Of a stretch of DNA of 43,987 nucleotides, positions 13,801 through 42,070 are shown in pieces (within the stretch, counting starts at the first letter, position 1; each line of letters starts with the position of its first letter). Source of the DNA: Candidatus Muiribacteriota bacterium. Its GTDB lineage: Bacteria > Muiribacteriota > DAOVTB01. The position numbers and the translations under genes were made by a program. The notes under the pieces are model-generated. The model ran no database searches. It was not told where the DNA came from and saw nothing but the letters and a program-made list of their open reading frames with translations. The stretch spans positions 1 to 43,987 of the forward strand of contig DAOVTB010000014.1 in the NCBI GenBank assembly GCA_030633305.1, in the 5' to 3' direction.

Positions 13801-16084
13801 GATGGTAAGCGGGCTTTCAGGATGGATTTCTGAATATAGGCTGACGTTTGATTCTGGAAATTCCAATCCTTCAACATCAATTATAAATCAGTATCTGATG
13901 CTTTCTTTTACCAAAAACTCAAATAGTGTGAACAGAATCTTTACAAAAAAGTATTCTCTTATAGACAAGATATGGGAAAGTTCCATGAGCCTGACGCCTC
14001 AGATGAGCTATTCACAAAAGTCTCAATCCTCATCCTCCGGAAGTTTTGGAGCAGTTGTTTTTGAGGGAAAAAATTCAAGTAGTACACCACAGCATTATTT
14101 TTCAATCACCGACAATCAAGCACTGTCATTTTCTTCACCTTATTCACTTGCTGAAGTTGGAGAGTCTCATGTCCAATATTTTTCCAGTAAGATGTATTCA
14201 GCATATTCGAAAATCGAAGTTGATAAGTATAATATCTTTTTCAGGATATTTAGTAATTATGGCACTGTTCCTGAAACTGAGTATCAGGTGAATTCACAGT
14301 CCCTTTATCATTCATATAATCCGAAAATACTATGTTATAATAGCAATGTTCATATTGTCTGGGAAGAAGGGGCTGCTAAACAATCGATTTATTATTCCAG
14401 TTCTGCTGACAGTACAATCTCATTTTCATCAGCGTCTGCAATGACATCAATGAGTTTTGATCACAGTGAACCAGAAATAATTGAACTGGGAGATAGATTA
14501 TTCCTGTTTTATCTCAGGAAAACCAGTGTAAGTACAAATGAATTGTATGTAAGGATTTCTGAAGATGATGGCTTGAACTGGAATGTTGAAAGTAAAGTTG
14601 ATATTGCAGTTGCAAATATAGTTTCATATGAAGTCATTGGTGATGAAATTTCCGATCGGATTCAACTTGTTTATTCTGGATTGAAATCAGGAGAGAGTAA
14701 TAACCACATTTTTTATAAATATTCACCAAATGCAGTCAACTGGTCTGTTGATGCTCAGATGAGCAGTTCAAACAGCGATTCAAAAAATCCTGTTCTTGCA
14801 GTAAGCAATGGAAAACTCTATTTGTTCTATGATGATGACCGTAATGGAAGCAGAGAAATATATTATCGTACGAATGATACTGTTGAATTTCTACCTCCAT
14901 CAATTGAGCTTTACACTTTTCCGAATCCGGCAAAAACTGAAGAGATAATATCACTTATTAAAACAGATTCCAATCTTCTGGTTACACCAACGTTGAAAAC
15001 TACAATAGGAACTCAGGAAAGCTCAGTTTCTGTAAGCAAGATTAAATCGGATACTTATATGGGGAATTTTAACATCTCCAATTCTGCTGATACGTTTGTA
15101 AAAGTAACGGCTGTTGCGACAAGTCCCTATAACAATCTGTTAACAGCTGAATCAAATTCTTATATTTCTACGATGCAGCTTCAGGGTAAAGCAATTTCAT
15201 TGAAACACAGGACTTTTGAAATAAAGGGAAACTATTCTGAAAATGGGATGATATTACTTTTTTCAAATAGCGAGAATATAAGTAGGAAAGTAGGTAAATC
15301 TGAAGATAGTATAAGTATTTATCCAGATAATTGTGTTTTGAAAAATACTGAAATTTATTTTGGACCTGTTTCTAATTCTTATTTGGTCAGATTGAGAAAT
15401 GGAGAAGAAGAATTCATCATGTCTCAAAAAGTTGGATGTCCAGAGCTTTCTGGTGGAAAGTATTATATAAAAACCGATGTTGGTAATCCTGTGATAAATG
15501 ATCTAAAAGTCAAATCTGGGATTTTTAGAACCGTAACTGTAAATATCAATGAAAGCGGTAGTGGTATTGATCAGAAAAATTCCAATATTACTGTCAGACA
15601 GGATAAGTTTTATCCTGTATCGAATTCATATGATCATTCAAGTGGTGAAAACTTTTTGAAGTTTAATATTCCAAAATCTGTTCGTGGAGATGGAATTGTA
15701 GAGGTTTTTGATAATGTTGGAAACGTGTCACAGAAACAATACAATTTTAAGGCCGTTGAATCTGCATTACTGCAGTTTTATGTTTATCCAAATCCTGTAA
15801 CTACAATTAGCGATATTCCTGTTGTTGTTGTTGCAGGAAATGAGATAGTAACTGGAGAAATCAGGATTTATGATGTTCGCGGAGACCTTGTTATTAAATT
15901 TCCACTCGATAATACTGATCTGGAAAGTGAAAATGGAGGAATATATACTTATAAGATTTTATGGCAGGGAACTAATCGGGTTGGACGTAAACTTGCAAAT
16001 GGAACATACCTGATGAAAGCCACATCAAGATTTGTAGATAATAATTCTTCAGAACGAACGTTTAAAATCACGATATTAGAATAA
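10811..16084 (+). pseudogene. Secreted BNR-like beta-propeller/Ig-like surface protein with FlgD/sorting-like C-terminus, interrupted by TAA at 12755-12757
   Basis: ORFs 10811..12757 and 12839..16084 share a frame; the 27 intervening codons are open and align to an internal repeat. Signal peptide N-term; YPNPVTT...IYDVRGDLV...NGTYLMKATSR C-term. May instead be two functional ORFs or readthrough. Confidence 0.75.
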
Positions 16085-16151: not shown

Positions 16152-17693
16152 ATGAGCGCTAATCTATGGCCATATAAGGAAGCTGAAAAACTTTTAAAAC
16201 AATACGGAACTGAAAAAGAAATTCTGTTTGAAACAGGTTATGGTCCTTCGGGATTACCACATATAGGAACATTTGGAGAAGTTGTACGGACCTATTTTCT
16301 TTTAAAAGCACTTCGTGAACTTGGTGGAAAAGGTAAGATCATTTCATTTTCCGATGATCTTGATGGACTTAGGAAGATTCCGAAAAACATGGATGCCGAA
16401 TTTTTAACTCCGCATCTGGGAAAACCATTGTCTTCGATCCCGGATCCATACGGATGCCACGGGAGTTATTCTGAACATATGAATCAGGAGCTTATTAAAA
16501 TGCTTGATCATATTGGCGTAGAATATGAATTTAAATCATCAACGGAACAATATAAAAGTGGTGTGTTTAACGATAGTATCAAAAGCATTTTAAGTAATCT
16601 TGATAAAATGGAGAGCATTGTTCTTCCAACACTTTCCCCAGAAACACGGAAAGGATGGTTTCCATATTTTCAGATCTGTGAAAATTGCGGAAAACTTTAT
16701 ACAAGTGATATTGAATCTTTTGATGTTGAAAAAATGGAAGTAACATATCATTGCTGTAAAGAATTCAAAGGTATAACTTCATGTGGTCATAAGGGGACTT
16801 CATCTGTTTTTGACGGAAAAGGGAAATTTACATGGCGAGTTGACTGGGGACTCAGATGGAATGCTCTCAAGATCAATTACGAATTGTATGGAAAAGATTT
16901 AATTGAATCGGCTAATGTTTCCAAAAAAATTGTCAGAGCAATAGGTGGAAAACCACCAATAGGAATGTTTTACGAACTTTTTCTAAATGAAGATGGGAGT
17001 AAGATATCAAAATCAGTTGGTGATGGTGTGACTCTTGATCAATGGTTTAAATATGGTAATGAAGATGCGTTGAAATTATACATGTTTAAAAAGCCAACAA
17101 AGGCCAAACGTCTTTATTTTGAAATAATCCCACAATATATGGATGAACTTTTAAGTATTCAAAATAGCTATTATAACAATACTTCTAAAGATGATACCTT
17201 TAAATTTGTAAAATTTTTTAATCTTGATGAAGCAAATCCATTTCCGAGTGAAACACAGTTTTCTACAATTTGTAACTTGATTTTAGCTGTAGGGAGTAAG
17301 GATAAGGATATTATTAAGGAATATCTTTTTGATGAAAGTGCTCCGGGACTTGATGAAAATCAAAAAAAATATATAGATGAAACACTCGATTTAGCAATAA
17401 AGTATGCAGACGAGATTATGAGTCAGGGCGGCGAAACACATGTTTTTGATAAGGATTTTGAAAATTGCTTTAAAAAGTTTATTGATTTTCTAAGTTCAGA
17501 AAAGGGCAGTGATGAGATTCATAACTCGATCTATCTGATTGCAAAGGAAGAAGAACTTGAGCCTAAAGCTTTTTTTAGAGAACTTTATCATGGTATAACT
17601 GGTCAGGAACGTGGTCCGCGACTTGGAAATTTTATTTCGACTATGGGTCAGAAGATAATAATTGATAAATTGACTGCATACATGGAGAAATAA
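16152..17693 (+). CDS. lysS: Lysyl-tRNA synthetase, class I
   Basis: GYGPSGLPHIGTFGE (HIGH) and SKISKSVGDG (KMSKS-like); Cys-rich zinc region; SD aaggag. Confidence 0.93.
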   Translation: MSANLWPYKEAEKLLKQYGTEKEILFETGYGPSGLPHIGTFGEVVRTYFLLKALRELGGKGKIISFSDDLDGLRKIPKNMDAEFLTPHLGKPLSSIPDPYGCHGSYSEHMNQELIKMLDHIGVEYEFKSSTEQYKSGVFNDSIKSILSNLDKMESIVLPTLSPETRKGWFPYFQICENCGKLYTSDIESFDVEKMEVTYHCCKEFKGITSCGHKGTSSVFDGKGKFTWRVDWGLRWNALKINYELYGKDLIESANVSKKIVRAIGGKPPIGMFYELFLNEDGSKISKSVGDGVTLDQWFKYGNEDALKLYMFKKPTKAKRLYFEIIPQYMDELLSIQNSYYNNTSKDDTFKFVKFFNLDEANPFPSETQFSTICNLILAVGSKDKDIIKEYLFDESAPGLDENQKKYIDETLDLAIKYADEIMSQGGETHVFDKDFENCFKKFIDFLSSEKGSDEIHNSIYLIAKEEELEPKAFFRELYHGITGQERGPRLGNFISTMGQKIIIDKLTAYMEK

Positions 17694-25438: not shown

Positions 25439-28400
25439 ATGTTACATAAAAATTTCCGATTTTGTATTATTCTGTTTATTTTGATCTCATCAGGGGTATT
25501 CACTTTATATTCTCAGAATTTTGAAGAAAAAGTAAAAGGGTATGAATCTAATATAATAGAAAAAGAAGAGAAATTTATTGGTGGTTCCATGGTTGTTAAA
25601 AAGAAGACGTTTAAGAGTCTTTTTCCTGGATTTATTAAAAATTACACTAGTAAACTGGATGGAAAAACCGGTACAGAAAAAGAAAAATATTGCAGGAAGA
25701 TATTTTTTCTACAGCAGGGACTTACAAGTATTTATAAATATACGACAAAACATGACGGTGTTCTGAAAAAACATCTGGAGAAAATACTTAAAGATGAATT
25801 TTATTTAAATTGCCATATCGAATTTTTGAGAAATATTCTTACTACAATGTTTTTTGAAATAAAATCTGAAAATATTTATAATCTTCCACTCCTTGAAATA
25901 ATGCCTTTAATTGCGAAACTGTCGGTGTTTTATGATTCCTATGCTGATGGTCTTCCATTTTATTATTCTTATTTACCTGACTATAATGAGTTAAAGAAAA
26001 GAAGTATAAATGGATATTTGCCTGATGTTACTGAAGAAATTCAGGAAAATCTTTCAATGAAACATAAATTATTTCTGAAAAAATTTCCCGCAGCAATCGA
26101 AAAACGATTTAATGGGATTCTTGAAAATGTTGATATTGAAGAGTCTGTTCTGGAAAAAGGGGAAAAATTTTACAATCAATCTTTGGATTCAATCAAAAAT
26201 AGCCTTGGTATAAAACTTGAAAAAGCTGGAACACTAGATGGAAAGTTGAAAAAGAATACAATTGAACTGGAAAATTTTATGGATGAAATTGTATTTTTGG
26301 AAAAAGATGAAAAAATAGTGAAGTGGATTGAATTGATGAAGGAAAATCTTGCTGCGAGAGTACAATTATTAAATTATAAAAAGGTTATACTGGATTTTCT
26401 TCCTGAAAGTTATTCTGATCAAATCAATAAACTCCTGTCCTTAGAATCTGGTTCAGATATTTTTGAAATTGAATTAAAAACAAGTGGAAAAAAAGTAAAT
26501 TCACTTGAAAATATATCAGTATTAATGACTGAGGTATCCAGTCTGGAAGAATTTTCAAAAGATAAAATCAGAGGAATTAAGCAGAACATAAATAATAATA
26601 TAATTGTATTTAAAAAGACTTTGAACATAATCTTAAAAAAGTATAAAGCTCAAGATTACAGGAGCATTCAAGCTCTTTATCAACTTGAATCAAATTATTG
26701 GAAGTTTCTAACCTTTCAATCCATTTTTAATAATCTTATAAATTCAATGCTTTTCAATGACAGTCCAGTTAACAAAAAACAACTTAAAAGATATAGCAAG
26801 TTTATTTCCAAAATAACTGGAAAATTGCAGAAAACAGTTTCCTGGCTTGCTGAAAAAACAGGTGTTTCTGTTTCTGATGATCAATCCGGAGAACTTGACA
26901 GGCAAAAATTGAAAATGCTGGCACTTCTTGGTGATGGCCAAACGAAATCTGTTGTTGATAAAGACATTAATAAAGTAAAGATTTCTGATAAACCTTTGAA
27001 AAATGATTCGTCGAACAATGTATTGGATGCGCTTTCCAGTTGGACTTCAAGTGATGATAAAGTAAATTCGGATCCGAAAAATACTGTTGATACCAAAACA
27101 GTTGATACGGTAATAGATAAACCAAAAACGGACTCGAATAAAACAAGTGAAGATAATAGCATACTTGATACACTTGTTGATATGACCAGCGGGGATAAGG
27201 TTGCAGCAGATGATTCAAATGATCAGACTAAAAAAACAGATATTTCTAAACCTGATGTTAATAACGATTCAAGTGGAGATAGTGTTTTAGATGCCCTTGC
27301 TGACTGGAAGAATGATAAAACAGATAAAAAAGTAAATACTGATACGAATGATTCTGTCAGTGATGATAAAAATGTTGATTCGTCTGGAAATGATAAATCT
27401 GATAATATTCTTGATTCGCTTTCAAACTGGATCTCAGAGGATGACAAAAAAAGTAATGATACAAAACCAGTAGTAGTTAAACCGGTTAAAATCAAAGTTG
27501 TAGAACCTGATAAGAGTGATGACGGCGATAAATCTGGTGATGATGGCAATATACTTGATGCTCTTAGTGATTTTGTATCGAATAACAAGAATGATGATTC
27601 CGTTATAACTGATACCACTGATGCTGTTCCAACTGTCCGAACTAGCAGTAATGATGATGATAAAGAGTTTACTAGATATATTTCTCAAAAAGAAAATTTT
27701 TCTTTCGATTATCCATCAGAAAAATGGCTGGAATCTCAGAAATTATTTAAATATGAAGTAACTCTTCGCCATAAAGGAAGTATTCTGCCGGCGATTTCTG
27801 TAAAATCAGAAATGACTAAGAATAAAATGTCCCTTAAGAATTTTGTTGAAAACAGAAAAAAAGTATTAAAAAAAGCATTCTCTGGAATGAATTATAAGCT
27901 TGTTGATACAGAGAATAATAGAGATGTATATTATATCATTATCTATAATATGGACTTTTTTGGAATAAAATGTAGCAATTTTGAATATGTTAAAGGTGAT
28001 GGAAATAATTTTTTTGTAATAAATAGTATTGTTACTAATGAACAAATTGATGATGTTGAATATGATCTTGAAAGTATTTTTAAAAGTTTTAGAATCTTGA
28101 AGCTTTTAAAACCTGTAGCACCTGTTGTTAAGAAAAAAATTGTAAAAAAACCAAAAAAGAAAAAATCTGTTAAAGTTGTGAAAAAAACGCCAGTAAAGAA
28201 ACCAGTGTATAATCCTCCGGCAAAGAAGCTTTCATTAAAAGAAAAGATGGCTAAACTAAGAGCAAAAATGAAGGCGCGGCAAAATAATTCGAGTGCTTCT
28301 TCGACAACTTATAAACCAACTGCAACTGTAAATAAGGGAAATAACCTGAACAATTATGAGAAGTACTGGTATAGCAAAATAAATCAGTTTGGACGTGATA

Positions 28401-28624
28401 TTGCATACTGGGAAAAAACGACATTTGTTCAGAAAAGAAGAATTCGGGTCTCAAAGCGGATCCAGTTCAAGGTAAAAGCTCTTTTTCGAGATATAAGAGT
28501 TGAAGAGGGTAAGGTTGAAAAATATATTAAACAATTTGGTGACGGTGGTCATATAAAAGATGTTAGAAATAATCTGGTACGTTTACACTTCAAAGCAGCT
28601 AAATTAAAAGACTGGGCAAATTAA
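25439..28624 (+). CDS. 1061-aa exported protein: helical N-half, acidic linker with five ILDALSxW motifs, PsbP/Mog1-like domain, Lys-rich segment
   Basis: Signal peptide; repeated motif; FTRYISQKENFSFDYPSEKWLE...VEYDLESIFKSFRIL PsbP-like. Confidence 0.7.
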   Translation: MLHKNFRFCIILFILISSGVFTLYSQNFEEKVKGYESNIIEKEEKFIGGSMVVKKKTFKSLFPGFIKNYTSKLDGKTGTEKEKYCRKIFFLQQGLTSIYKYTTKHDGVLKKHLEKILKDEFYLNCHIEFLRNILTTMFFEIKSENIYNLPLLEIMPLIAKLSVFYDSYADGLPFYYSYLPDYNELKKRSINGYLPDVTEEIQENLSMKHKLFLKKFPAAIEKRFNGILENVDIEESVLEKGEKFYNQSLDSIKNSLGIKLEKAGTLDGKLKKNTIELENFMDEIVFLEKDEKIVKWIELMKENLAARVQLLNYKKVILDFLPESYSDQINKLLSLESGSDIFEIELKTSGKKVNSLENISVLMTEVSSLEEFSKDKIRGIKQNINNNIIVFKKTLNIILKKYKAQDYRSIQALYQLESNYWKFLTFQSIFNNLINSMLFNDSPVNKKQLKRYSKFISKITGKLQKTVSWLAEKTGVSVSDDQSGELDRQKLKMLALLGDGQTKSVVDKDINKVKISDKPLKNDSSNNVLDALSSWTSSDDKVNSDPKNTVDTKTVDTVIDKPKTDSNKTSEDNSILDTLVDMTSGDKVAADDSNDQTKKTDISKPDVNNDSSGDSVLDALADWKNDKTDKKVNTDTNDSVSDDKNVDSSGNDKSDNILDSLSNWISEDDKKSNDTKPVVVKPVKIKVVEPDKSDDGDKSGDDGNILDALSDFVSNNKNDDSVITDTTDAVPTVRTSSNDDDKEFTRYISQKENFSFDYPSEKWLESQKLFKYEVTLRHKGSILPAISVKSEMTKNKMSLKNFVENRKKVLKKAFSGMNYKLVDTENNRDVYYIIIYNMDFFGIKCSNFEYVKGDGNNFFVINSIVTNEQIDDVEYDLESIFKSFRILKLLKPVAPVVKKKIVKKPKKKKSVKVVKKTPVKKPVYNPPAKKLSLKEKMAKLRAKMKARQNNSSASSTTYKPTATVNKGNNLNNYEKYWYSKINQFGRDIAYWEKTTFVQKRRIRVSKRIQFKVKALFRDIRVEEGKVEKYIKQFGDGGHIKDVRNNLVRLHFKAAKLKDWAN

Positions 28625-29687: not shown

Positions 29688-30454
29688 ATAAAATAGAATC
29701 GTTTGAAAGAACTCCGTTTTTTCATTCCCGCTCCCAGATCGAGTATTATGATAAGGCAGTAGTTCATCCTGAAAGTAGATATTTTAAACTGATTTATGAA
29801 ATACTCTCAGAAATCGAAACTGGAAATGAATCTTTTCTGGATATAGGTTCAGGTACGGGTGTTCTTGGAAATATGATGAAGGATGTTTTTAAAAGAGTAG
29901 ATCTTGTAGATTCTTCGCCTGTAATGTGTGAATTATCTAGAAAAAAGAATGATGAATTTTCGAATATTTTCCATCATAATTGCAATTTTGAAACCTTTGT
30001 ACCGCCAGTAAAACAATATGATCTGATTACATCAATTCATGTTGCAGGTGGTTATTTTCTTGAAGAAGGTTTTATCAGGAGAATTATGGAGATGAAAAAT
30101 GGTCCTGCTGTTTTTTTTCTTTTGAAACCATACAATGACAAATTTTATTCTGATGAATTATATCCTTTGCTGTTTTCTGAAAAGAAAGAAATAAGTAGTA
30201 GTAAATTCAAAATAAGACCTTTTGTTGAAAATTTGCTTGATTGTTCAGTTGATTTTGAATTGAGAAATATTGAATTAGAACTGGTTCAGGAATTTGTAGA
30301 TTTTGACGAAGCTTTAAATTTCTGGATGATGTATTTGCCTGAAAAAGAATTTGATATAGATGTATTGAAAAAAATTTTATTGAAAAAACTTAATTTTTCA
30401 CAGAAAAAATATTTCTATAAAAATACTGTAAAAAGTACTGTGATCAAGTTTTGA
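29684..30454 (+). CDS. Class I SAM-dependent methyltransferase
   Basis: SFLDIGSGTGVLGNMM motif I; ATGA overlap with upstream gene. Confidence 0.82.
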   Translation: MNKIESFERTPFFHSRSQIEYYDKAVVHPESRYFKLIYEILSEIETGNESFLDIGSGTGVLGNMMKDVFKRVDLVDSSPVMCELSRKKNDEFSNIFHHNCNFETFVPPVKQYDLITSIHVAGGYFLEEGFIRRIMEMKNGPAVFFLLKPYNDKFYSDELYPLLFSEKKEISSSKFKIRPFVENLLDCSVDFELRNIELELVQEFVDFDEALNFWMMYLPEKEFDIDVLKKILLKKLNFSQKKYFYKNTVKSTVIKF

Positions 30455-31428
30455 ATAAAAGATATTGCCTTCATAAAAGTATGGAGTGGCTTGAACGTGT
30501 TGCCAGGACAAGGTCAAAACTCTATGAAATCACGAGGGATTTTTTTAATAGCAGAGATTTTCTGGAAGTAGAAACGCCAATAGTTGTAAATTATCCTGGA
30601 AATGATCTTTTCACCAATGCGTATGAAATAACTGATAACAATGGCTTTTTGATTTCGTCCCCTGAATATTCGATGAAAAAACTACTTGGGGCAGGATTTA
30701 AAAAGATATTTACGATAACAAAAAGTTTTCGATTAAACGAATCTACCAGATTTCATAATCCTGAATTTACGATGCTGGAATGGTATGAACCTTTTACTGA
30801 TTATAAAGATCTTTTTAAATTGACCAGAGATTATATGAAAGTTGTTTTTGAAAATTTTTTCCCTGATGGAATAATAAGAAAAAATAATAGAAATTTTATC
30901 TTTGCCAATTTTTTGGAAACAACATTGGATGATTTATTTATTGAACATGCAGGGTTTTCATTTAGAAGAACAGTTGAGTTTGAACAAATAAAGAGTATTG
31001 CAACAGACAATCTAAATCTTGATTGTACATCTTTATGCGACTGGAATGAGGTTTTTAGCCTGATTTTTCTTGAAAAAATTGAACCGGTGTTAAATAAATT
31101 TGATACTCCGGTTGCTGTATATGATTATCCGGTTACCCTGGCTTCGCTTTCTAAATTATCAGCAGCGCGAGATGTTTGTGAGAGATTTGAAATTTATTTA
31201 TCCGGTGTTGAGTTATGTAATGGCTTTACTGAACTTGATGATGGTGAGGAACAGAAAAAAAGATTTCAAAAAAATCATCAAAAGATTGATGAAAATCTGA
31301 TAACTGCCCTTAACGAAGGATTTCCGCCTTGTAGTGGTATTGCAGTTGGTTTGGACAGATTGTTGTTTTTTTGTTTGCCTGAAGCCAAAACTCTGTCGGA
31401 TGTTATTTTATTCCCTAAAACGGTATAA
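30451..31428 (+). CDS. epmA: EpmA/GenX-like class II LysRS paralogue (EF-P lysyltransferase family)
   Basis: FLEVETPIVVNYPGNDLFTNAYEI; SPEYSMKKLLGAGFKKIFTITKSFR; ELCNGFTELDD; GIAVGLDRLLF; no anticodon-binding domain. Confidence 0.85.
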   Translation: MNKRYCLHKSMEWLERVARTRSKLYEITRDFFNSRDFLEVETPIVVNYPGNDLFTNAYEITDNNGFLISSPEYSMKKLLGAGFKKIFTITKSFRLNESTRFHNPEFTMLEWYEPFTDYKDLFKLTRDYMKVVFENFFPDGIIRKNNRNFIFANFLETTLDDLFIEHAGFSFRRTVEFEQIKSIATDNLNLDCTSLCDWNEVFSLIFLEKIEPVLNKFDTPVAVYDYPVTLASLSKLSAARDVCERFEIYLSGVELCNGFTELDDGEEQKKRFQKNHQKIDENLITALNEGFPPCSGIAVGLDRLLFFCLPEAKTLSDVILFPKTV

Positions 31429-31637: not shown

Positions 31638-31692
31638 TTTTTATATTTTATAATAGAAATATTATGTCAATTTTCCATATAAAAGGAGAGCT

Positions 31693-34600
31693 TTGAAAAT
31701 GTTTGCCAGTTTTAGATTCCGGGCATTTTTGGTTTTATTTGTTTTTGTATTTATTGGACTTCTTCTCGGCAGTATAGGGTGTACGCTTAACACTTCCGGC
31801 AAAAGTTCTTTTCTTGATCGCGCTACGTCTCTTACTGGGACCAAAACAACAACGTCAAGCACTAGTTTGAAGGGTAACGTTATTGATGCCCTTGACGAAA
31901 AGGGTTTAAACAATCTGACCGTGACTACGGAAGGAAACCTTATAACCAAAACAGCAAATGACGGTGTAAATGATGGAATATTTCAATTTACGAATGTTCC
32001 TTCGAGCAAAACCAAAGCAATTTCTTTTATTCTCTCGGTTGGCGGCAGTGGTTATGAGACTGCTTATCGAACAATGACTATTAATACTTCAGATTATGGA
32101 AAAACAGTTGACAGCAGCGAGTCTAGTCGCGGTGGTCCGATAAAGATATATCGAACCACTTATGCACAGATTGGTTATGTTATAGGGCAAGTACTGAATC
32201 ATGAAGGCGAACCTTTAGATGGCATTACTGTTGAAACACTTGAACTGAATACAAGTACCACTTCTCCATATAGAACCTATACTACTTCTTCAGGCATGCC
32301 TAAAAAAGGTATGTTTAGACTTGAATTACCTGCCGCGCCTCCTGACAATCAGGCAACTTATACAATAGTTGTAAAAGCGGTTGGGTACAATAACTATACT
32401 GCTAGTAATGTAGTTATAGAAAGACTTCAGACTAAAGATCTAGGTCAGTTGAAATTGAGTGAAACAACTAGCAGTGCTGAAACAAGGGATATAGTTGGAC
32501 AGGTGGTAGACGCTGACACTCTTCTTGGAGTTGATGGTGTTACGGTTAGAACTGAGGGCGGATTAAGTGTTTTGAGTGGAAATATCACTCCAAAAGTCAA
32601 TCAAGGTGATTTTATTATAGAAGATGCTCCGGTTGGTACTTATTATATTTTTGCTTCAGGAACCGGATGGATGGAATATAAAAAACAGGTTACCGTTGCA
32701 GTTGGTGCTGGGAGCTATGATGCTGGAAGTTTTCCACTTTCTAAAGGTCCTGCGGAAACGGTATACGGAAAAGTTTATGATGCTAATACTTTTGTGGAAA
32801 TACAGGCTGCAACAGTTGAAATCAGGAATTATGATTTTACTTTTTTTAAATCGACGCTGACGGCAACATCAAGCAATGAAGATGGTATCTTTAGATTTGA
32901 TCAGAACATTCCAATCGATAATAGCAATGATTATGTTATGACAGCGAAAAGCCAGAGTTATATTTCAAAATCTACAACCATTTCTATTACGGATTCTGAT
33001 TCTATTGACATTAATACAATATCATTTCCACTTGTTAAAATAGCTTCTTCTGTTTGGATTTACGGAGAAGTTAAAGAAACGGATAATGTCACGGTCATTT
33101 CTTTTGCAACTGTTGAAGCATATGATAAACTTGGTGTACCATCTGGAATTACTGCAGAGACTGATGGAGATGGCATTTATGTGTTGCAAGGTATAACTCC
33201 AGGGTATGTACCATATACTCTTAAAGTTACCAAAGTTGGTTATCAACAGGGCGTGAAAACTGTCACTTATCTAGAAACGGGAGGGAATGAAATTCCTCCA
33301 ATTCTTCTAGAAAAACTTCAGGGAGAAATTTATGGGATTGTTTATATCAGTGATGGAGACAGTGATGATGGGACTGATTACAGTGGTATTACAAGAGTAA
33401 TTTCTGACGCAACAGTCACCTTGATTAATAAATTATCTGGTGTTTCAACTGTTGTTCAGTCAAGAATAGATGGTTCATACATTTTTACAAATGTTGATCA
33501 GGGAAATTATATAATTGCTGGTGAAAAACCTGGTGCTTATGATCTTCATTTTTATCAGGTGGCGATAACTCCGACTAGTTATAGAATTGAGCAGGACATT
33601 GAACTTCCTACTACATCTGGTGGTGCTGGGGATGGATTTCTTACAGGTATTGTAAAATCTGCAATTAATGATAAACCTATTCCTAATGCCACAGTTAAGC
33701 TCGTTGGAACACCTGTGGGAGTTGGCGAAGCAACAACTAATGATGCTGGAAGATTTTCTTTTGGCTATAATCCGGGTGAATATGTAGGATATGGATTTTC
33801 TCAAAATTATAGTTATGATTATCGGGATTCTATTATACTTGAAGAAGGAAAAGTAACATCAATAACATTTGAACTCCAACCTATAAGGGGAACTCTGGCG
33901 GGTCAGGTTTTATCCGGAAGTAATCTTGTAGGAGGCGCTACAGTAGAACTTTGGAATTTATCCGAATCAACTCGTGAAGCTGGACCGGATTTCACAGATA
34001 ACAATGATGGCCGTTACAAGTTTTATGAAGTACAGTACGGGAATTATTACTTGATTGTTTCAGCAGATGGTTTTTATACTTCAAAAAACAGGATTACAAT
34101 AGATGAAACCATAGAAACAATGAATGTTAATCTATCCAGAAAATCTGGTAATATTACAGGTGTAGTTTACCATGACATTAATAAGGATGGTGCTTATACT
34201 GCAAATGAAGAATTTGAAGGTGCAAGGATAGATATTGAAGGAACGAATTATGTTGCTTTTACGGCACCTAATGGAATATACAACATTACTGGTGTTTCTG
34301 TAGCATTGTACAATGTGGTTGCATCCTATAATGGTTATCAGGATTTTACAAGAGAAGTTGATATTCTTTCAGGTAGTACGGTCACAGTAAATTTTCAACT
34401 TGATAAAAGTGGTGGTTCGATTGCAGGTATTGTTTACTATGATATTAACGATTCTTCGTCATATGATACCGGAGAAGGACTTGAAGGTGCGACAGTGGAA
34501 TTATGGAAAGATGGATCTATTGCTGGTACCTTTCAGACATTATCAGGTGGTTCATATGAATTTTCACCAATGGATGCAGGAACTTACATTATTAAAGCTG

Positions 34601-37600
34601 GTAAGGATACATATTCAAACAATTCAATGTTTGTTACAATTGCAAATGCAACAACTTTTCAGAACCTTGATCTGACCCCGATGTTTGGAACAGTTGTTGG
34701 AGTTGTAAAAGAAGATGCTGACGAGGATGGTGTTGCTGATGCTGGAGAATCTCCATTAAGTGGAGTAACAGTTCTATTGACATCCTTTGCTGGGGAATAT
34801 TCAGTTACATATACTGATGGAACCGGAAATTTTACTTTTGAAAATATTGCAAAAGGCGCTAAGACTTTAACCGCTGATGCTGGCGACTACTATACAACTG
34901 TAGTAAAGAATGCTCAAATTAATGCTGGTGAGCCAACCACTGTTGATTTTGCACTTATTAACAATAAAGGAAGAATTTCAGGGACTGTAACGGATTCTTC
35001 GGATTCAACTCCTCTTGAAGGAGTTAGTGTTACATTGTTAACTCTTGCTGGCGTTACTGAAACATATACTTATTCTAATACCTCGGGAACGTACTGGCTT
35101 ATTGGGATTACACGAGGAACTTACAAGCTCTTTTATGAAAAACAGGATTATACCTCAAATAATATTACTTTTGATATTATAGCAGGTCAATCCGTACAGC
35201 TTTCAACTATTTCTCTTAGTCCGACTATGGGATCATTGTCTGGTGAGGTTAGGGATATCAGAACCGGTTTGCCAATATCTGGTTCAGTTGTTTTATTATC
35301 CCTTAATAATAATGTTGTGTCCACTTCAACTGATGCTGGAGGCGGTTTTAGATTTTCGCAGATCGCTGCAGGTATATATGAAGTAGGAGCACATAATTCG
35401 ACATTTCACAGTCCAATGACCAAGGAAGTTGAAGTTGAACAAGCAAAGACGTCCTCAGTTTTACTGGAATTGTATCCATTGACTGGAGGAATTAGTGGTG
35501 AAGTTGTTAATGCTTTTGATACTAGTCAAAAACTTAGTGGGGCAACTGTTGAATGTGATGCGGGCATTTTTTATACAAATTCAATTGGAGCCTTATCTAT
35601 TACTGGTTTAACAGAAGGTAATAAAAAGCTCATAGTTAATAATTTACCTTTATATGAATCCAAAATATATTATGTGGATGTAACTGCTGGGCAGACAACT
35701 GGAAATAATGTGTTCGAACTGAACCCTTTGTATGGAGCCATGTCCGGGGAAGTTTACTCTACTGTTGGCAATCTTCCGATTAGTGGTGCCAGCATTACAG
35801 TATATTCTCAGGAGTTCTTTACAGATAACAGTGGTAGATTTAGTATTACAGGTTTGACAGCAGGGTCTAAAATGTTGACTGCTCGTAAACCGGAATATAA
35901 AGATAGTATCGTTTATGCCAATATAGAAGCTGGGAAAACGACATTACTTTCCAGGATTTACTTGAATACAATATATGGCGCACTCAGTGGTGAAGTTATA
36001 GATTCGCGAACTGAGGAAAAAATAAGTGGTGCATCTATCAGTTTTGCTGAAACTGGACATATTGCAACTACTGATTCTTTAGGAACTTTTAGTATTACTG
36101 GTATTACTGAAGGTACAAAAATGCTCTTAATTGGCCAATCTCCAGAGTATGATGGAATCACTAAATTTGCAATCACAATTACCGCTGGACAAATATATCA
36201 TAGCATATTTCGATTAACCAGAGCGCTTGGCGAGATCACTGGTGAAATAAAAGATGCATTCTCAGGTGCAAAACTTGTTGGCGCTTCTGTAACTTCTGAA
36301 GGAAAAACGGTATATACCGATTCATTAGGTTATTATAGTATTACTGGAATTTCCGAAGGAACACATCTGGTTACTGCTAATAATTATCCCGATTATGTTT
36401 CAAGAAGTATAAATATAACGATCAGTAAAGGACAGATTTCCACTGGAAATGATTTTTATTTAAGTCAAAAACTTGGTACTGAACTTTCAGGTGAAGTTCA
36501 GGATTCAATTGAAAACACTGCTATTTCAGGTGTAACTGTCACAATAGATGGCCGTCCAATCAGTGAAGCAATATTTACTGATTCTGATGGTAATTTTACT
36601 TTCAGAGATATTACTCCAGAACTTCTACTTTTGAAGTTTTCTAAAGATGGTTATAACGATGCATCAAAAGAAGTTTATTTAACAAGTGGGCAGAAGTATA
36701 AGTTGCCAAATCCTGTCAAAATGATAGCGCTTAAACCTGTATATGGTACAATTAAACATTTTGATACCAATGATACTCTTGAAGGAATTACTGTTGAATG
36801 CGAAGGTATTCAAAGTTTTTCTGGATCAGATGGTTCATATCTTATTTCTGGTATAACTTTTGGGACACATACTGTATATGCTCGTGGGGGTCCAATATAT
36901 AGCGATTCTTCAAGAACGTTTTCTATGACATCGCAGGATGTAACAGGGAAATCTGGGCAGGATATGGATTTGAAAAAGCAGCTTCTGTCCTTGTCTGGTG
37001 AAATCACAGATCTGGATTCTGGTCTTGCAATTGCAGGTGCAACTATTACAATTAACGCACTGCCTGCGACTGCTGATGAATATGGTATGTTTGGAATAAC
37101 TGGTATTTCAGTTGGCACACATACTGTCAAGATAGAATATGCTCCAGATTATGCTCAAACGGACTTTTTTGTAACCTTTGTTGAGAATACAGATATAGAA
37201 AGTAGACAGTTTAGGCTTAGTAAGAGCAGTTCTACAGTGAAAGGTATTATTTTTGATAAATACACGTCAACCCCGCTTTCGGGTGCAACTGTCTCGATTT
37301 ATCCTTCTACTCCTCCTGGTGGAGTTTTTGAAAACAGTGTTACTACAGCGCTTGATGGTACTTTTACATTAACAGGTGTTACAAAGGGATATAAAGATAT
37401 TTATGCCCGTTATAAAGGTGAATATCGTGAAAACTTTGTTACAGTTAATGTTGAAGAGGGACAAACGATTTCAGGTATATCAATTCCAATTGTACCTATT
37501 TATTATTACTATATTTCAGGTACAGTTTATGATCACGAAGGAAACGTTTTTAACCAAGCAAGGGTTTGGACAACAGTTGCTAAAACGGTAAGAGTAAAAA

Positions 37601-40600
37601 CTGATGGTACTTATACTCTTACCGGACTTTCGACCGGTTTACATACTTTTACTTGTGAAACAGTATATACAACAGGTGGTACATATGATAATTATACAAA
37701 GCCAATGGTTACTATTAATATCCTGGAAGACCCAAGTAAACAACATGCCAGCACCATCGATTTTACACTAACTCCAAAATTCGGAAAAATTGATGGTACC
37801 GTTATAAAATCTGGTGGCTCGCCGTTTTCAGGTGTAAGCATCATGATTAATGATGTTGATGCCACAATTTCTCTGTTTGATGGCACGTACAATGTCGAGG
37901 ACCTTACCCCTGAGACCTACAAAATAACAGCTTACAAGGCAGATTATCTGACGGTAGAAACATATGCCGAAGTCAAAAGGGGAACTACTTTCACTGCCGA
38001 TTTCAATATGATACCAAATATAACTTCTATTACTGGTACGGTTACTTATAAAAATGGTGCTGCTTATGATCCCGTTATTGGAGCAAGTGTTTCACTTGAT
38101 TCGCCGGCATTAGATACAATTTCAGAATCTGATGGTCTTTATCAGTTTTTAAGTATAACACCTGGTAATAAAAATCTTATTTTTTCTGCGGAAGGATATG
38201 CTGTTGAAAGAAGATTTCTTAATGTCCTGACCGGAGAAGCGAAAATACTGGATATTATTTTGACTGTAAACATTGGTAATATTTATGGTGTGATTTCAGA
38301 TAAAACTGGTAATCCTATTGAAGGGGCAAGTGTTACTTATGCTTCAAAGGTCGTATATACTGAGGATACGGGTTCTTATTTTATATCAGGTATTACTGAA
38401 GGGATTAAAACTATCAGCATCAGACATGATACAGGTGGTTATATTCAAAAGTCAGTTTCAATTGATGTCATAGCCGGGGAAACGGTAACTAAGAATGCTA
38501 CCCTTGAACGTCTGTATGGTACTCTATATGGAACAATCACTGATGACGATACCACAGCTGCGCTTTCAGGAGCCACTTTGCGAGTTTCTTCTATCTATAA
38601 TGGTAATATAGGTATCGAGACGACAGTGACGGATGTAAACGGGCGTTATATATTTGATGCAATTACTGCAGAATTTACAACTGTTGAAATTTTTTATTAT
38701 CCAAAATATACTAGTAAATCACATAAGTTAACGATAACTGGTGGTTTGAGTACTGAAAATAATGTATCTCTTGTTCCTGGGCTTGGTACTGTTTTTGGTA
38801 CAGTTTATGATATAGATACATTAACTAGTATAAGTGTGGAATTAAGTGGTGTAACTGTTCAGATAGTTCTGAGTGGATCAACTATATCAAAACAATTAAC
38901 AGATGTTTATGGTGCTTATGAATTCAAAGATCTACAACCTGGTTTTTATACAGTATATGGTTATTATGCTGGTTACAATCACGACGAGAAGAGCATAAAT
39001 GTACTTGCTGGAATTTCGCATTCATTGAACCTTTTTTTATATGATAACATTGGATCAGTAGAGGGACTTGTACAAAATTCTCGTGGCAGCATCCTAGCGG
39101 GCGCATATGTTTACTTGTTTACTAGTGAATCAAGTTATATTGCGAACCTGTTTACTCAGGAGTCCACTGTTAGTGATGCAACCGGGGCTTTTTCGTTTAA
39201 TAAGGTTACTGCGGGCACTTATTTTATTGTAGCTGAAAAAGAAAGTTATATTGAGTATAATAATCAATCTTCATATATTATTCAACTTGATCGGGATGAG
39301 GCAGTCACGACTCCGAATATTTTGTTAAGTGGACAGTATGGCACGATCGCTGGGACGATTGTTGGTGTAAAAAATCCGTTTACATTTAATCCTGCGGCAC
39401 CAGATCCTACAAATTTTGATCCTCTTAGCGGTGTGACTTACTGGTATGCTCAGCAAGGTTCAGCAATTGATTATGGGACTCCATATTTTGCACTGAATTA
39501 TGGATCGTTTGAGATAGTAGATCTTTCTGCTGGAGCCTATAATGTTGTATCAAAACATAATTATTACGATACTGGTGAAGCATTTATAGAAGTTATTGCT
39601 GGCGAAAATAATAGTGGTCAATATATTTTTAATAATAACCTGTATGGTTCAGTTGCGGGGCAAGTGCTTGAAGGTACAGGTTTTGGAGCAACAGTGCTAT
39701 CAGGAGCAACAGTAATACTGAGATCTGTTGATGTAGCAGATGTTGTAATCAGAACGGTTCATGCAGATTCTAATGGTATTTTTGTTATCAATAATGTTTT
39801 GACCAATAATTATGCAGATGCTGGAAACGGGGCATATCAAGGAAATTATATTATTGAAGCAGGTTATAATAATTACGCGACGGGTGAAGTGTATGCTCTG
39901 GTACTTTCCGGACAGACAACATCTAACCAGATTCTGAATCTTAGTAAAAATGTTGGAACAATCAGGGTCACTTGTAATGATCATTATTCTCAACCAGTTT
40001 CAGGAGCTTCAGTCGGTCTATTTGCTACAACATCATATTACAATAAGGTTACAAATTCTACAGGTATAGCAATTTTTAATGATTTGCCAGAAAATCTTGA
40101 TTTTACTGTTAGAGGTGTTAAAACAGATTATGCTACTGCTGAAGCTTATACAACTGTATCTTCGGGAATTACCGAAGAGCTTACTCTTGTGCTTGATCTG
40201 TATTCAGGAAGAGTATATGGTTATGTAAAGAGTGCTGTTTCAGGGGGTTATCTTGCTGGAGCAACCGGGTCAATTACGGATGCCAATGGCAATGTAAAGA
40301 ATTTTACGACTGAATCGGATGGATTTTATTCGATTTCAGGTATTTCACTAACAGAATTGACATTAGTAGCATCTGCCTCGGGTTATGGAGGTGATACTAT
40401 GGTTGCTTCACTTACTGGTAGTACACTCGAAGTAAATTTCAGTCTTCAACCAAATCTTGGAATTGCAACGGGTATTGTAAGAGGGAAAAATACAGGTATT
40501 GTAGTTCCAAATACAAAGGTTATAGCACTTAATATTTTATCTGGAATTTCCTATACTGTGTTTACTGATAATAATGGTTCATACACTATCAGTGATATGC

Positions 40601-41445
40601 GTTGGGGATCATATTCGCTTACTGCTGAGCCTTCATCTCAGGAATATCAAACTGGGAAAGGTACTGGAATTGTCGATGCAGTTAACGTAACATTTGATCC
40701 AATACTGCTACAGGAAGTTCGAGGATCAATATATGGATTTGTGGTAAGTGCTGGAATGGCTAAAGGAATAAAAGGTATATCAGTATATTTTACTTCACTT
40801 GGTGGTTTTGCACCAATAGGTGGACTTAGTTATCCCGCTACGGAAGGGAATGGGTACTATGCAATCTCAGGAATTTCTCATGGATCATATGATATAATGT
40901 ACAAGGATAATCTGACTCCTTCTGAAGCACTTGTAATAAGAGGAACTTCAACTGTTTATCAGGAATTCAGGTATCCGAATTTAGTTGTAGATTCTACCAC
41001 TACGGGATTGTCTGTATCGGTTACTCTGGTACCTTCCCCCAATGCAGGAGCTATTGCAGGGACATTGCTTTTCTGGACACTCGCTGGTGCGACTGACGAA
41101 TATACTAATACATTTTCAACATTTGAAGTCCCCTTTCCGTTTAGATATCACCCGTCTGCTGGGGATTGGGGTGGTTCTAATGCTACGGTCGAATTCTATC
41201 TTAATGGATTTGATGGAGGAACTGGTATTCCTGACCACTGGGCGACTGCAGAAGAGGATGGATATTTTCGCGAAGATGGTCTTAGAGAAGGTAAGTGGTA
41301 TTGTATTGTTAGATTATATACATCTGAACCTGGTGCAGGAGGAACTTTTAGAAGGTATCTTATACCATATACCTTTGAAGTTGACGTACATGCAGGACAG
41401 ATTCATGATATAGGATTATTGGAATGGGAGAAACAGGAAGAATAA
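31693..41445 (+). CDS. Giant (3250 aa) predicted lipoprotein of ~35 CarboxypepD_reg-like repeats
   Basis: Lipobox-like LLGSIGC; repeated G-x-[IV]-x-G-x-[IV]...LSGATV...TD..G.[FY].I.GIT.G units of ~75-100 aa; ATG at 31699 also possible. Confidence 0.9.
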   Translation: MKMFASFRFRAFLVLFVFVFIGLLLGSIGCTLNTSGKSSFLDRATSLTGTKTTTSSTSLKGNVIDALDEKGLNNLTVTTEGNLITKTANDGVNDGIFQFTNVPSSKTKAISFILSVGGSGYETAYRTMTINTSDYGKTVDSSESSRGGPIKIYRTTYAQIGYVIGQVLNHEGEPLDGITVETLELNTSTTSPYRTYTTSSGMPKKGMFRLELPAAPPDNQATYTIVVKAVGYNNYTASNVVIERLQTKDLGQLKLSETTSSAETRDIVGQVVDADTLLGVDGVTVRTEGGLSVLSGNITPKVNQGDFIIEDAPVGTYYIFASGTGWMEYKKQVTVAVGAGSYDAGSFPLSKGPAETVYGKVYDANTFVEIQAATVEIRNYDFTFFKSTLTATSSNEDGIFRFDQNIPIDNSNDYVMTAKSQSYISKSTTISITDSDSIDINTISFPLVKIASSVWIYGEVKETDNVTVISFATVEAYDKLGVPSGITAETDGDGIYVLQGITPGYVPYTLKVTKVGYQQGVKTVTYLETGGNEIPPILLEKLQGEIYGIVYISDGDSDDGTDYSGITRVISDATVTLINKLSGVSTVVQSRIDGSYIFTNVDQGNYIIAGEKPGAYDLHFYQVAITPTSYRIEQDIELPTTSGGAGDGFLTGIVKSAINDKPIPNATVKLVGTPVGVGEATTNDAGRFSFGYNPGEYVGYGFSQNYSYDYRDSIILEEGKVTSITFELQPIRGTLAGQVLSGSNLVGGATVELWNLSESTREAGPDFTDNNDGRYKFYEVQYGNYYLIVSADGFYTSKNRITIDETIETMNVNLSRKSGNITGVVYHDINKDGAYTANEEFEGARIDIEGTNYVAFTAPNGIYNITGVSVALYNVVASYNGYQDFTREVDILSGSTVTVNFQLDKSGGSIAGIVYYDINDSSSYDTGEGLEGATVELWKDGSIAGTFQTLSGGSYEFSPMDAGTYIIKAGKDTYSNNSMFVTIANATTFQNLDLTPMFGTVVGVVKEDADEDGVADAGESPLSGVTVLLTSFAGEYSVTYTDGTGNFTFENIAKGAKTLTADAGDYYTTVVKNAQINAGEPTTVDFALINNKGRISGTVTDSSDSTPLEGVSVTLLTLAGVTETYTYSNTSGTYWLIGITRGTYKLFYEKQDYTSNNITFDIIAGQSVQLSTISLSPTMGSLSGEVRDIRTGLPISGSVVLLSLNNNVVSTSTDAGGGFRFSQIAAGIYEVGAHNSTFHSPMTKEVEVEQAKTSSVLLELYPLTGGISGEVVNAFDTSQKLSGATVECDAGIFYTNSIGALSITGLTEGNKKLIVNNLPLYESKIYYVDVTAGQTTGNNVFELNPLYGAMSGEVYSTVGNLPISGASITVYSQEFFTDNSGRFSITGLTAGSKMLTARKPEYKDSIVYANIEAGKTTLLSRIYLNTIYGALSGEVIDSRTEEKISGASISFAETGHIATTDSLGTFSITGITEGTKMLLIGQSPEYDGITKFAITITAGQIYHSIFRLTRALGEITGEIKDAFSGAKLVGASVTSEGKTVYTDSLGYYSITGISEGTHLVTANNYPDYVSRSINITISKGQISTGNDFYLSQKLGTELSGEVQDSIENTAISGVTVTIDGRPISEAIFTDSDGNFTFRDITPELLLLKFSKDGYNDASKEVYLTSGQKYKLPNPVKMIALKPVYGTIKHFDTNDTLEGITVECEGIQSFSGSDGSYLISGITFGTHTVYARGGPIYSDSSRTFSMTSQDVTGKSGQDMDLKKQLLSLSGEITDLDSGLAIAGATITINALPATADEYGMFGITGISVGTHTVKIEYAPDYAQTDFFVTFVENTDIESRQFRLSKSSSTVKGIIFDKYTSTPLSGATVSIYPSTPPGGVFENSVTTALDGTFTLTGVTKGYKDIYARYKGEYRENFVTVNVEEGQTISGISIPIVPIYYYYISGTVYDHEGNVFNQARVWTTVAKTVRVKTDGTYTLTGLSTGLHTFTCETVYTTGGTYDNYTKPMVTINILEDPSKQHASTIDFTLTPKFGKIDGTVIKSGGSPFSGVSIMINDVDATISLFDGTYNVEDLTPETYKITAYKADYLTVETYAEVKRGTTFTADFNMIPNITSITGTVTYKNGAAYDPVIGASVSLDSPALDTISESDGLYQFLSITPGNKNLIFSAEGYAVERRFLNVLTGEAKILDIILTVNIGNIYGVISDKTGNPIEGASVTYASKVVYTEDTGSYFISGITEGIKTISIRHDTGGYIQKSVSIDVIAGETVTKNATLERLYGTLYGTITDDDTTAALSGATLRVSSIYNGNIGIETTVTDVNGRYIFDAITAEFTTVEIFYYPKYTSKSHKLTITGGLSTENNVSLVPGLGTVFGTVYDIDTLTSISVELSGVTVQIVLSGSTISKQLTDVYGAYEFKDLQPGFYTVYGYYAGYNHDEKSINVLAGISHSLNLFLYDNIGSVEGLVQNSRGSILAGAYVYLFTSESSYIANLFTQESTVSDATGAFSFNKVTAGTYFIVAEKESYIEYNNQSSYIIQLDRDEAVTTPNILLSGQYGTIAGTIVGVKNPFTFNPAAPDPTNFDPLSGVTYWYAQQGSAIDYGTPYFALNYGSFEIVDLSAGAYNVVSKHNYYDTGEAFIEVIAGENNSGQYIFNNNLYGSVAGQVLEGTGFGATVLSGATVILRSVDVADVVIRTVHADSNGIFVINNVLTNNYADAGNGAYQGNYIIEAGYNNYATGEVYALVLSGQTTSNQILNLSKNVGTIRVTCNDHYSQPVSGASVGLFATTSYYNKVTNSTGIAIFNDLPENLDFTVRGVKTDYATAEAYTTVSSGITEELTLVLDLYSGRVYGYVKSAVSGGYLAGATGSITDANGNVKNFTTESDGFYSISGISLTELTLVASASGYGGDTMVASLTGSTLEVNFSLQPNLGIATGIVRGKNTGIVVPNTKVIALNILSGISYTVFTDNNGSYTISDMRWGSYSLTAEPSSQEYQTGKGTGIVDAVNVTFDPILLQEVRGSIYGFVVSAGMAKGIKGISVYFTSLGGFAPIGGLSYPATEGNGYYAISGISHGSYDIMYKDNLTPSEALVIRGTSTVYQEFRYPNLVVDSTTTGLSVSVTLVPSPNAGAIAGTLLFWTLAGATDEYTNTFSTFEVPFPFRYHPSAGDWGGSNATVEFYLNGFDGGTGIPDHWATAEEDGYFREDGLREGKWYCIVRLYTSEPGAGGTFRRYLIPYTFEVDVHAGQIHDIGLLEWEKQEE

Positions 41446-41906
41446 TGAAAACAAGTATTGCTAAAATCCCGTTATATATTCTGTCAGGCTGGTTAGTTCC
41501 AGGATTGGGGCATCTTATCTATGGTAAGAAATTTAAGGGTTTCATGTTTCTAGCCTTAATCTCAATGCTGGTTATGGTTGGAGTTTCTTTTGATGGAGAG
41601 ATCTATTCTCCAAGGATATGGGCAGAGAATCAGGAACATACACTGGGACCTTATTTGCCGCTTACAGCAAATTTCTTCACAGGGTCATATTTTATAACAG
41701 CTTATTTAACAACATTTGCAGACGGGGATATTAAGAGTAAATCCTTTGAAATTGGAAATACATTTATACTGACTGCGGGATTTCTCAATCTTCTAATACT
41801 GGTCGATCTTTTCGATTATATGATTGGTTATAGGAAAAAAGATGAACAAGAGGTTAATGAATCTGAAGATGAAGTTAATGAGAAAGACGAAAAGGTGAAA
41901 GAATGA
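41445..41906 (+). CDS. Small membrane protein (DUF6677-like)
   Basis: KIPLYILSGWLVPGLGHLIYGKKFKGFMFLALI; TAATG overlap with the giant gene; acidic/Lys C-terminal tail. Confidence 0.75.
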   Translation: MKTSIAKIPLYILSGWLVPGLGHLIYGKKFKGFMFLALISMLVMVGVSFDGEIYSPRIWAENQEHTLGPYLPLTANFFTGSYFITAYLTTFADGDIKSKSFEIGNTFILTAGFLNLLILVDLFDYMIGYRKKDEQEVNESEDEVNEKDEKVKE

Positions 41907-42070
41907 TATTTGTACTTCAGTTTGCTATACTGGCTTTTGGAATTTCATTTGTAATGGCTGGAACGTATTTTGATAAGCCACGTACGATAATGACGGTAGG
42001 TCTTAAATACTGGGGTCTGCTTTGTGGTGCCGCGCTCATTCTTGGAACTTTTTTATTCGTTGCGTCCTGA
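41903..42070 (+). CDS. 55-aa two-TM protein
   Basis: Translated by hand: MIFVLQFAILAFGISFVMAGTYFDKPRTIMTVGLKYWGLLCGAALILGTFLFVAS; ATGA overlap with the preceding gene; below ORF-track cutoff. Confidence 0.75.
   Translation: MIFVLQFAILAFGISFVMAGTYFDKPRTIMTVGLKYWGLLCGAALILGTFLFVAS

Follow-up and report, generated by a model that had tools for sequence, protein, structure and literature searches.

A predicted giant lipoprotein of tandem transthyretin-like units and a conserved pair of small membrane-protein genes in a Candidatus Muiribacteriota genome

NOMO, a subunit of the BOS complex in the ER, is a chain of tandem transthyretin (TTR)/Ig-like domains, and has been described as an extended but flexible rod made up of 12 Ig-like domains of ~3.5 nm each, which bears force across the ER lumen (PMC12262048). 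In Gram-positive bacteria, a prealbumin-like fold serves as a stalk in the TIE protein, BcpA, SpaA and the B repeats of SdrD. Related units are described by the Pfam families CarboxypepD_reg (PF13620) and CarbopepD_reg_2 (PF13715), and tandem copies of them are common in the phylum to which the DNA analyzed here belongs.

The window, that is, the whole stretch of DNA that was analyzed, is the complete contig DAOVTB010000014.1 (43,987 nucleotides, forward strand) from a 4.64-Mb draft genome of Candidatus Muiribacteriota. It encodes a giant protein which shares its domain family with the PF13620/PF13715 proteins but differs from the others in carrying 34 units in one chain and nothing else recognizable, and which is the longest open frame among the matches listed for arrays of this type. 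NOMO has a transmembrane anchor near its C-terminus, whereas the giant has a predicted N-terminal lipid anchor and about three times more domains; its C-terminus, IGLLEWEKQEE, was found by eye to contain no hydrophobic segment that could correspond to the anchor of NOMO. We therefore regard the giant as working like the NOMO-like rods, not as a member of them. It resembles SdrD in that acidic loops of the SdrD_B type occur in two of its units, but unlike the Gram-positive stalks it has neither a conserved Lys of the isopeptide triad nor an LPXTG motif, and the predicted lipid anchor takes their place. The predicted stalk is an unusually long example of an already-known domain architecture.

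The giant gene and its predicted lipoprotein signal

The features of the giant gene and of the two small genes that follow it are listed in the table.

Table. Features of the giant gene and the downstream pair, in positions of the window
Feature	Position	Strand	Basis and properties
Shine-Dalgarno-like AAGGAGAG, 5' of the TTG start	31683..31690	+	Direct sequence read; position approximate by 2-3 nt
Giant lipoprotein gene (predicted)	31693..41445	+	Direct sequence read; TTG start at 31693, TAA stop at 41443-41445; 3,250 aa; calculated pI 4.5; ~345 kDa minus signal
Predicted signal peptide and lipobox, residues 1-29 and Cys30	31693..31782	+	PS51257 by eye; Lgt/LspA genes
Ser/Thr-rich linker, residues 31-57	31783..31863	+	Sequence
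Array of 34 CarboxypepD_reg/TTR-like units, residues 58-3085	31864..40947	+	Profile search, Pfam, identity statistics, AlphaFold2
Three SdrD_B-like units, starting at residues 819, 908 and 999	34147..34968	+	Pfam SdrD_B matches, motif scan
Units of highest mutual identity (38-45%), residues 1265-1594	35485..36474	+	Identity statistics
Divergent C-terminal domain, residues 3086-3250	40948..41442	+	Search for relatives in 57 genomes
DUF6677 (PF20382) predicted inner-membrane protein, 153 aa	41445..41906	+	Pfam, 72.9 bits (cut-off 24.3)
DUF6677 partner, 55 aa, two predicted transmembrane helices	41903..42070	+	Partner profile, hydrophobic segments

The reading frame of the giant remains intact over 9.75 kb, where random composition would turn ~7% of its codons into stops, and its position-specific GC content is 0.47/0.44/0.22. 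GGAG lies immediately ahead of the TTG start, and translation could alternatively begin at an ATG two codons further on. Counts of promoter and terminator elements were at chance level only. Two synthetase genes lie elsewhere in the window (16152-17693 and 30451-31428), one for a class I lysyl-tRNA synthetase and a short one for an EpmA-like class II enzyme, and there are three long open reading frames of 648, 1081 and 1061 aa (10811-12757, 12839-16084 and 25439-28624) for which no Pfam match was found at E≤0.001.

The N-terminus, with MKMFASFRFRAFLVLFVFVFIGLLLGSIG-C30, was checked by eye against the PROSITE PS51257 rule (a K or R among the first 7 residues, none of D, E, R or K ahead of [AGS]C, and the Cys at position 15-35) and agrees with it. 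The lipobox region reads FIGLLLGSIG-C30, with Ser at position -3, which is permitted by the rule but less usual. Genes for Lgt and LspA were found side by side on one contig (C210) of the same genome, which also encodes Omp85 proteins, and because of the presence of all three the host is probably a diderm with lipoprotein processing. Both the fit to the rule and the presence of Lgt and LspA bear out the lipobox-like N-terminus that the sequence-only reading had described, and the 3,250-residue predicted lipoprotein that it had proposed is a real open reading frame. We infer a lipid anchor at Cys30.

The repeat array, its predicted fold and its relatives

Both Pfam families proposed for the repeats matched the giant far above their curated cut-offs: PF13620 in 30 stretches (E=9e-212, 686.5 bits, cut-off 32.3) and PF13715 in 24 stretches (369.2 bits, cut-off 32.2). 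An iterated profile built from the giant itself resolved 34 back-to-back units between residues 58 and 3074, spaced 80-105 aa apart (mean 89.5 ± 7). Relatives of the C-terminal domain (about residues 3086-3250) were sought in 57 genomes and none were found; this domain looks like a further divergent unit. The earlier count of about 35 divergent beta-sandwich repeats was therefore right, with 34 units scored and a C-terminus resembling one more.

Pairwise identity among the units averages 24% and reaches at most 45%. Adjacent units are 26% identical, which is barely above the value for distant ones, with the exception of the units at residues 1265-1594, which look like the youngest local expansion within the array. 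A search of the DNA for tandem copies as long as a repeat unit found none. Two glycines of the unit, G5 and G38, are the same in every one of the 34 units and are encoded by three and four different codons, respectively; Tyr and Val positions are near-invariant. Since fresh DNA copies are absent and the invariant glycines are encoded by varied synonymous codons, the array is, judged from its sequence, an old one that is kept by selection on the protein, as had been suggested. In two of the three SdrD_B-like units, a DxNxDG or DxDxDG acidic loop is present, and these loops could act as Ca2+ sites.

In order to model the fold, AlphaFold2 was run on three consecutive units (residues 1265-1512) with an alignment of nine other, non-overlapping triads of units, which were used because an alignment of overlapping three-unit segments slipped out of register. 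The model consists of three all-beta domains (pLDDT 94). Foldseek matched it to TIE, BcpA, SdrD, SpaA, other stalk or pilin domains and a truncated NOMO, with low global TM-scores (0.2-0.46), which we attribute to the different hinge angles of multi-domain chains. The best solved chain by sequence profile was NOMO2 (E=1.2e-36). The Pfam matches, the NOMO2 profile match, the AlphaFold2 model and the prealbumin-like stalk domains found by Foldseek thus agree with the CarboxypepD_reg-like fold that had been predicted. A CnaB-type stalk, cross-linked as in Gram-positive bacteria by isopeptide bonds that depend on a conserved Lys, an Asn/Asp and an acidic residue, was considered and rejected, because no Lys column is conserved over the 34 units. 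If extended at the ~3.5 nm per unit of NOMO, 34-35 units would span ~120 nm.

Arrays detected with a three-unit profile were present in 34 of the 37 genomes searched, all of them in the phylum of the window, where the named genomes of the comparison set are metagenome-assembled genomes of 'Candidatus Riflebacteria' and 'Candidatus Wallbacteria', and array length varied widely from genome to genome. In another family of this phylum (f5), giants with 19-23 units were found in three genomes (G004, G008 and G014, at loci L045, L046 and L047). The complete one (L046, 8698-16689; 2,663 aa) has a lipobox. The f5 giants are like the giant of the window in their lipobox, acidic composition and TTR units but are only ~25% identical to it, and their neighbors differ: a 325-aa secreted protein is encoded upstream, and a 656-aa protein followed by a hemA-like gene downstream. 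This neighborhood (L046:7718-18748) was also observed at L045 and L047, with the 325-aa secreted protein conserved. No DUF6677 was found in the genomes of the f5 giants.

The DUF6677 gene and its small partner

The two junctions reported for the three genes are both present: the stop codon of the giant overlaps the start of the DUF6677 gene by 1 nt (TAATG, 41443-41447), and the DUF6677 gene overlaps the 55-aa open reading frame at ATGA (41903-41906). AlphaFold2 predicts a helical protein for DUF6677 (pLDDT 88), and a fold search of the PDB with this model returned nothing below E=0.9; the family was not named in the literature searched. The 55-aa protein had been described as having two transmembrane segments, and both hydrophobic segments were found. 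No Pfam family was found for it, but a profile built from 33 partners, with the one of the window left out, ranked it first among the 172 open reading frames of the window (E=7e-4, the next at 0.12).

DUF6677 loci were drawn from genomes of Acidobacteriota, Planctomycetota, Aminicenantes and Riflebacteria/Wallbacteria and from further relatives. In 29 of the 31 testable loci, a two-helix partner frame of 50-85 aa begins near the stop of the DUF6677 gene, with which it often shares 4 nt, whereas only 1 of 311 neighboring genes used as controls is followed by such a frame; partner length across loci was 55-83 aa. Both misses are partial: one (L057) has a 56-aa frame with a single helix above the threshold, and the other (L081) has a partner-like N-terminus that continues into a different reading. 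Three loci (L061, L063 and L075) lie too near a contig end and were not scored, with L075 still showing the partner. Weak DUF6677 matches in family f6 (L011, L013 and L014) and at L066, L076, L084 and L087 were considered to be other TM2-like proteins and were not counted, because they do not have the C-terminal (Y/I)G..F...AG.LN.L motif. The TM2-like proteins at L011, L013 and L014 form a family of about 65-88 aa, and the copies at L011 and L013 lie upstream of a cation-efflux-type transporter gene.

Because of the frequency of 29 in 31 loci versus 1 in 311 controls, the two small genes are, on comparative grounds, a conserved unit of their own, an apparently independent bicistron that occurs across several phyla. 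The same arrangement is found in four genomes of family f3, where there are no or almost no triple-unit arrays. The genes upstream of the pair, as named from their translations, vary and include phosphatidylserine (PS) synthase/decarboxylase, an M24 peptidase and cmk-rpsA-ihfB; in the genome of the giant there are four PF02666 genes, in a search for the PS-decarboxylase neighborhood, and none adjoins DUF6677. Both this distribution and the varied neighbors fit a general inner-membrane role of the pair. The DUF6677 proteins of the f3 genomes (L007:1483-2280, L009, L010 and L012, in genomes G010, G022, G002 and G017) contain an extra stretch of ~110 aa (GHTKPGLTLEIFNETSGDKVQTQADYKGFFSF...), which is beta-sandwich-looking and is located in a loop between membrane segments; no Pfam match was found for this insert.

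Possible roles of the giant and of the pair

The reading that we prefer, with a probability of about two in three, is that the giant is an exported poly-TTR lipoprotein, a stalk or adhesin anchored in the outer membrane and located outside the cell, and that the small pair is independent of it and merely downstream. Cys30 would receive its lipid through Lgt and LspA, and behind the Ser/Thr linker the 34-35 TTR-like beta-sandwiches would be beaded into an extended, semi-rigid stalk, most likely pointing outward. DUF6677 and its partner would form a separate inner-membrane pair, co-transcribed behind the giant by chance and not needed for it. The word adhesin reflects architecture only, because no recognizable binding-function domain was found in the giant. 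The same absence of a recognized surface-binding or sorting domain is consistent with a periplasmic tether or ruler, in which the lipoprotein would remain on the inner side of the outer membrane, or sit in the inner membrane, with a chain that spans or lines the periplasm, bearing load as does NOMO, its nearest solved relative by sequence (PMC12262048). No second membrane-binding or peptidoglycan-binding domain was found at the C-terminus of the giant, which argues against such a tether, and an extended chain of ~120 nm far exceeds the typical Gram-negative periplasm, which is far narrower; we consider this role unlikely. That the array has no specific role and reflects a lineage-specific repeat expansion under weak selection is hardly credible: array lengths do vary widely between genomes and no relatives of the C-terminal domain turned up in the 57 genomes, but an intact frame of this length, and Gly, Tyr and Val positions preserved with synonymous change among units of such low identity, indicate long-lasting purifying selection.

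The sequence-only reading had joined the three genes into one unit, a long surface stalk with membrane partners, and of this the repeat lipoprotein, its predicted fold and the small membrane genes stand, while the three-gene unit does not. The overlaps at TAATG and ATGA suggest a single transcript, and the stop-start overlap suggests translational coupling of the giant and DUF6677 in the genome of the window. However, the pair occurs without a giant upstream in Acidobacteriota, Planctomycetota, Aminicenantes and other Riflebacteria/Wallbacteria, comparable giants occur in genomes without DUF6677, and the giant carries a predicted lipoprotein signal of its own. Since co-occurrence fails in the sampled relatives, where the expected gene order is not kept, an outcome that the sequence-only reading had itself named as refuting, we count the three-gene unit as unsupported, and it is improbable that the two small proteins serve to anchor, export or assemble the stalk, even though the loop insert of the f3 proteins, which has no Pfam match, hints at contact with such domains. 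The comparison genomes all lie outside the family, order and class of the window, and for this reason a coupling specific to its lineage may still exist. A more speculative and very improbable proposal is that DUF6677 and its partner make up a so far undescribed but widely conserved inner-membrane complex of two subunits, whose clients would be exported beta-sandwich proteins, with the f3 insert as a fused docking domain; the arrangement in the window, where the gene of a giant client is coupled to the complex, would expose this role.

In the preferred reading of an outward-pointing stalk, the giant is a candidate molecule of cell-cell or cell-surface contact, a very long transthyretin-domain lipoprotein from a little-studied lineage of environmental genomes. 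The less expected result of the analysis is the conserved pair beside it, DUF6677 and a Pfam-less protein of 55-83 aa, which is common to several phyla and may matter more than the giant. One of the genomes that have the pair is that of Terriglobus roseus DSM 18391 (L069), a sequenced strain in which the function of the pair is testable.
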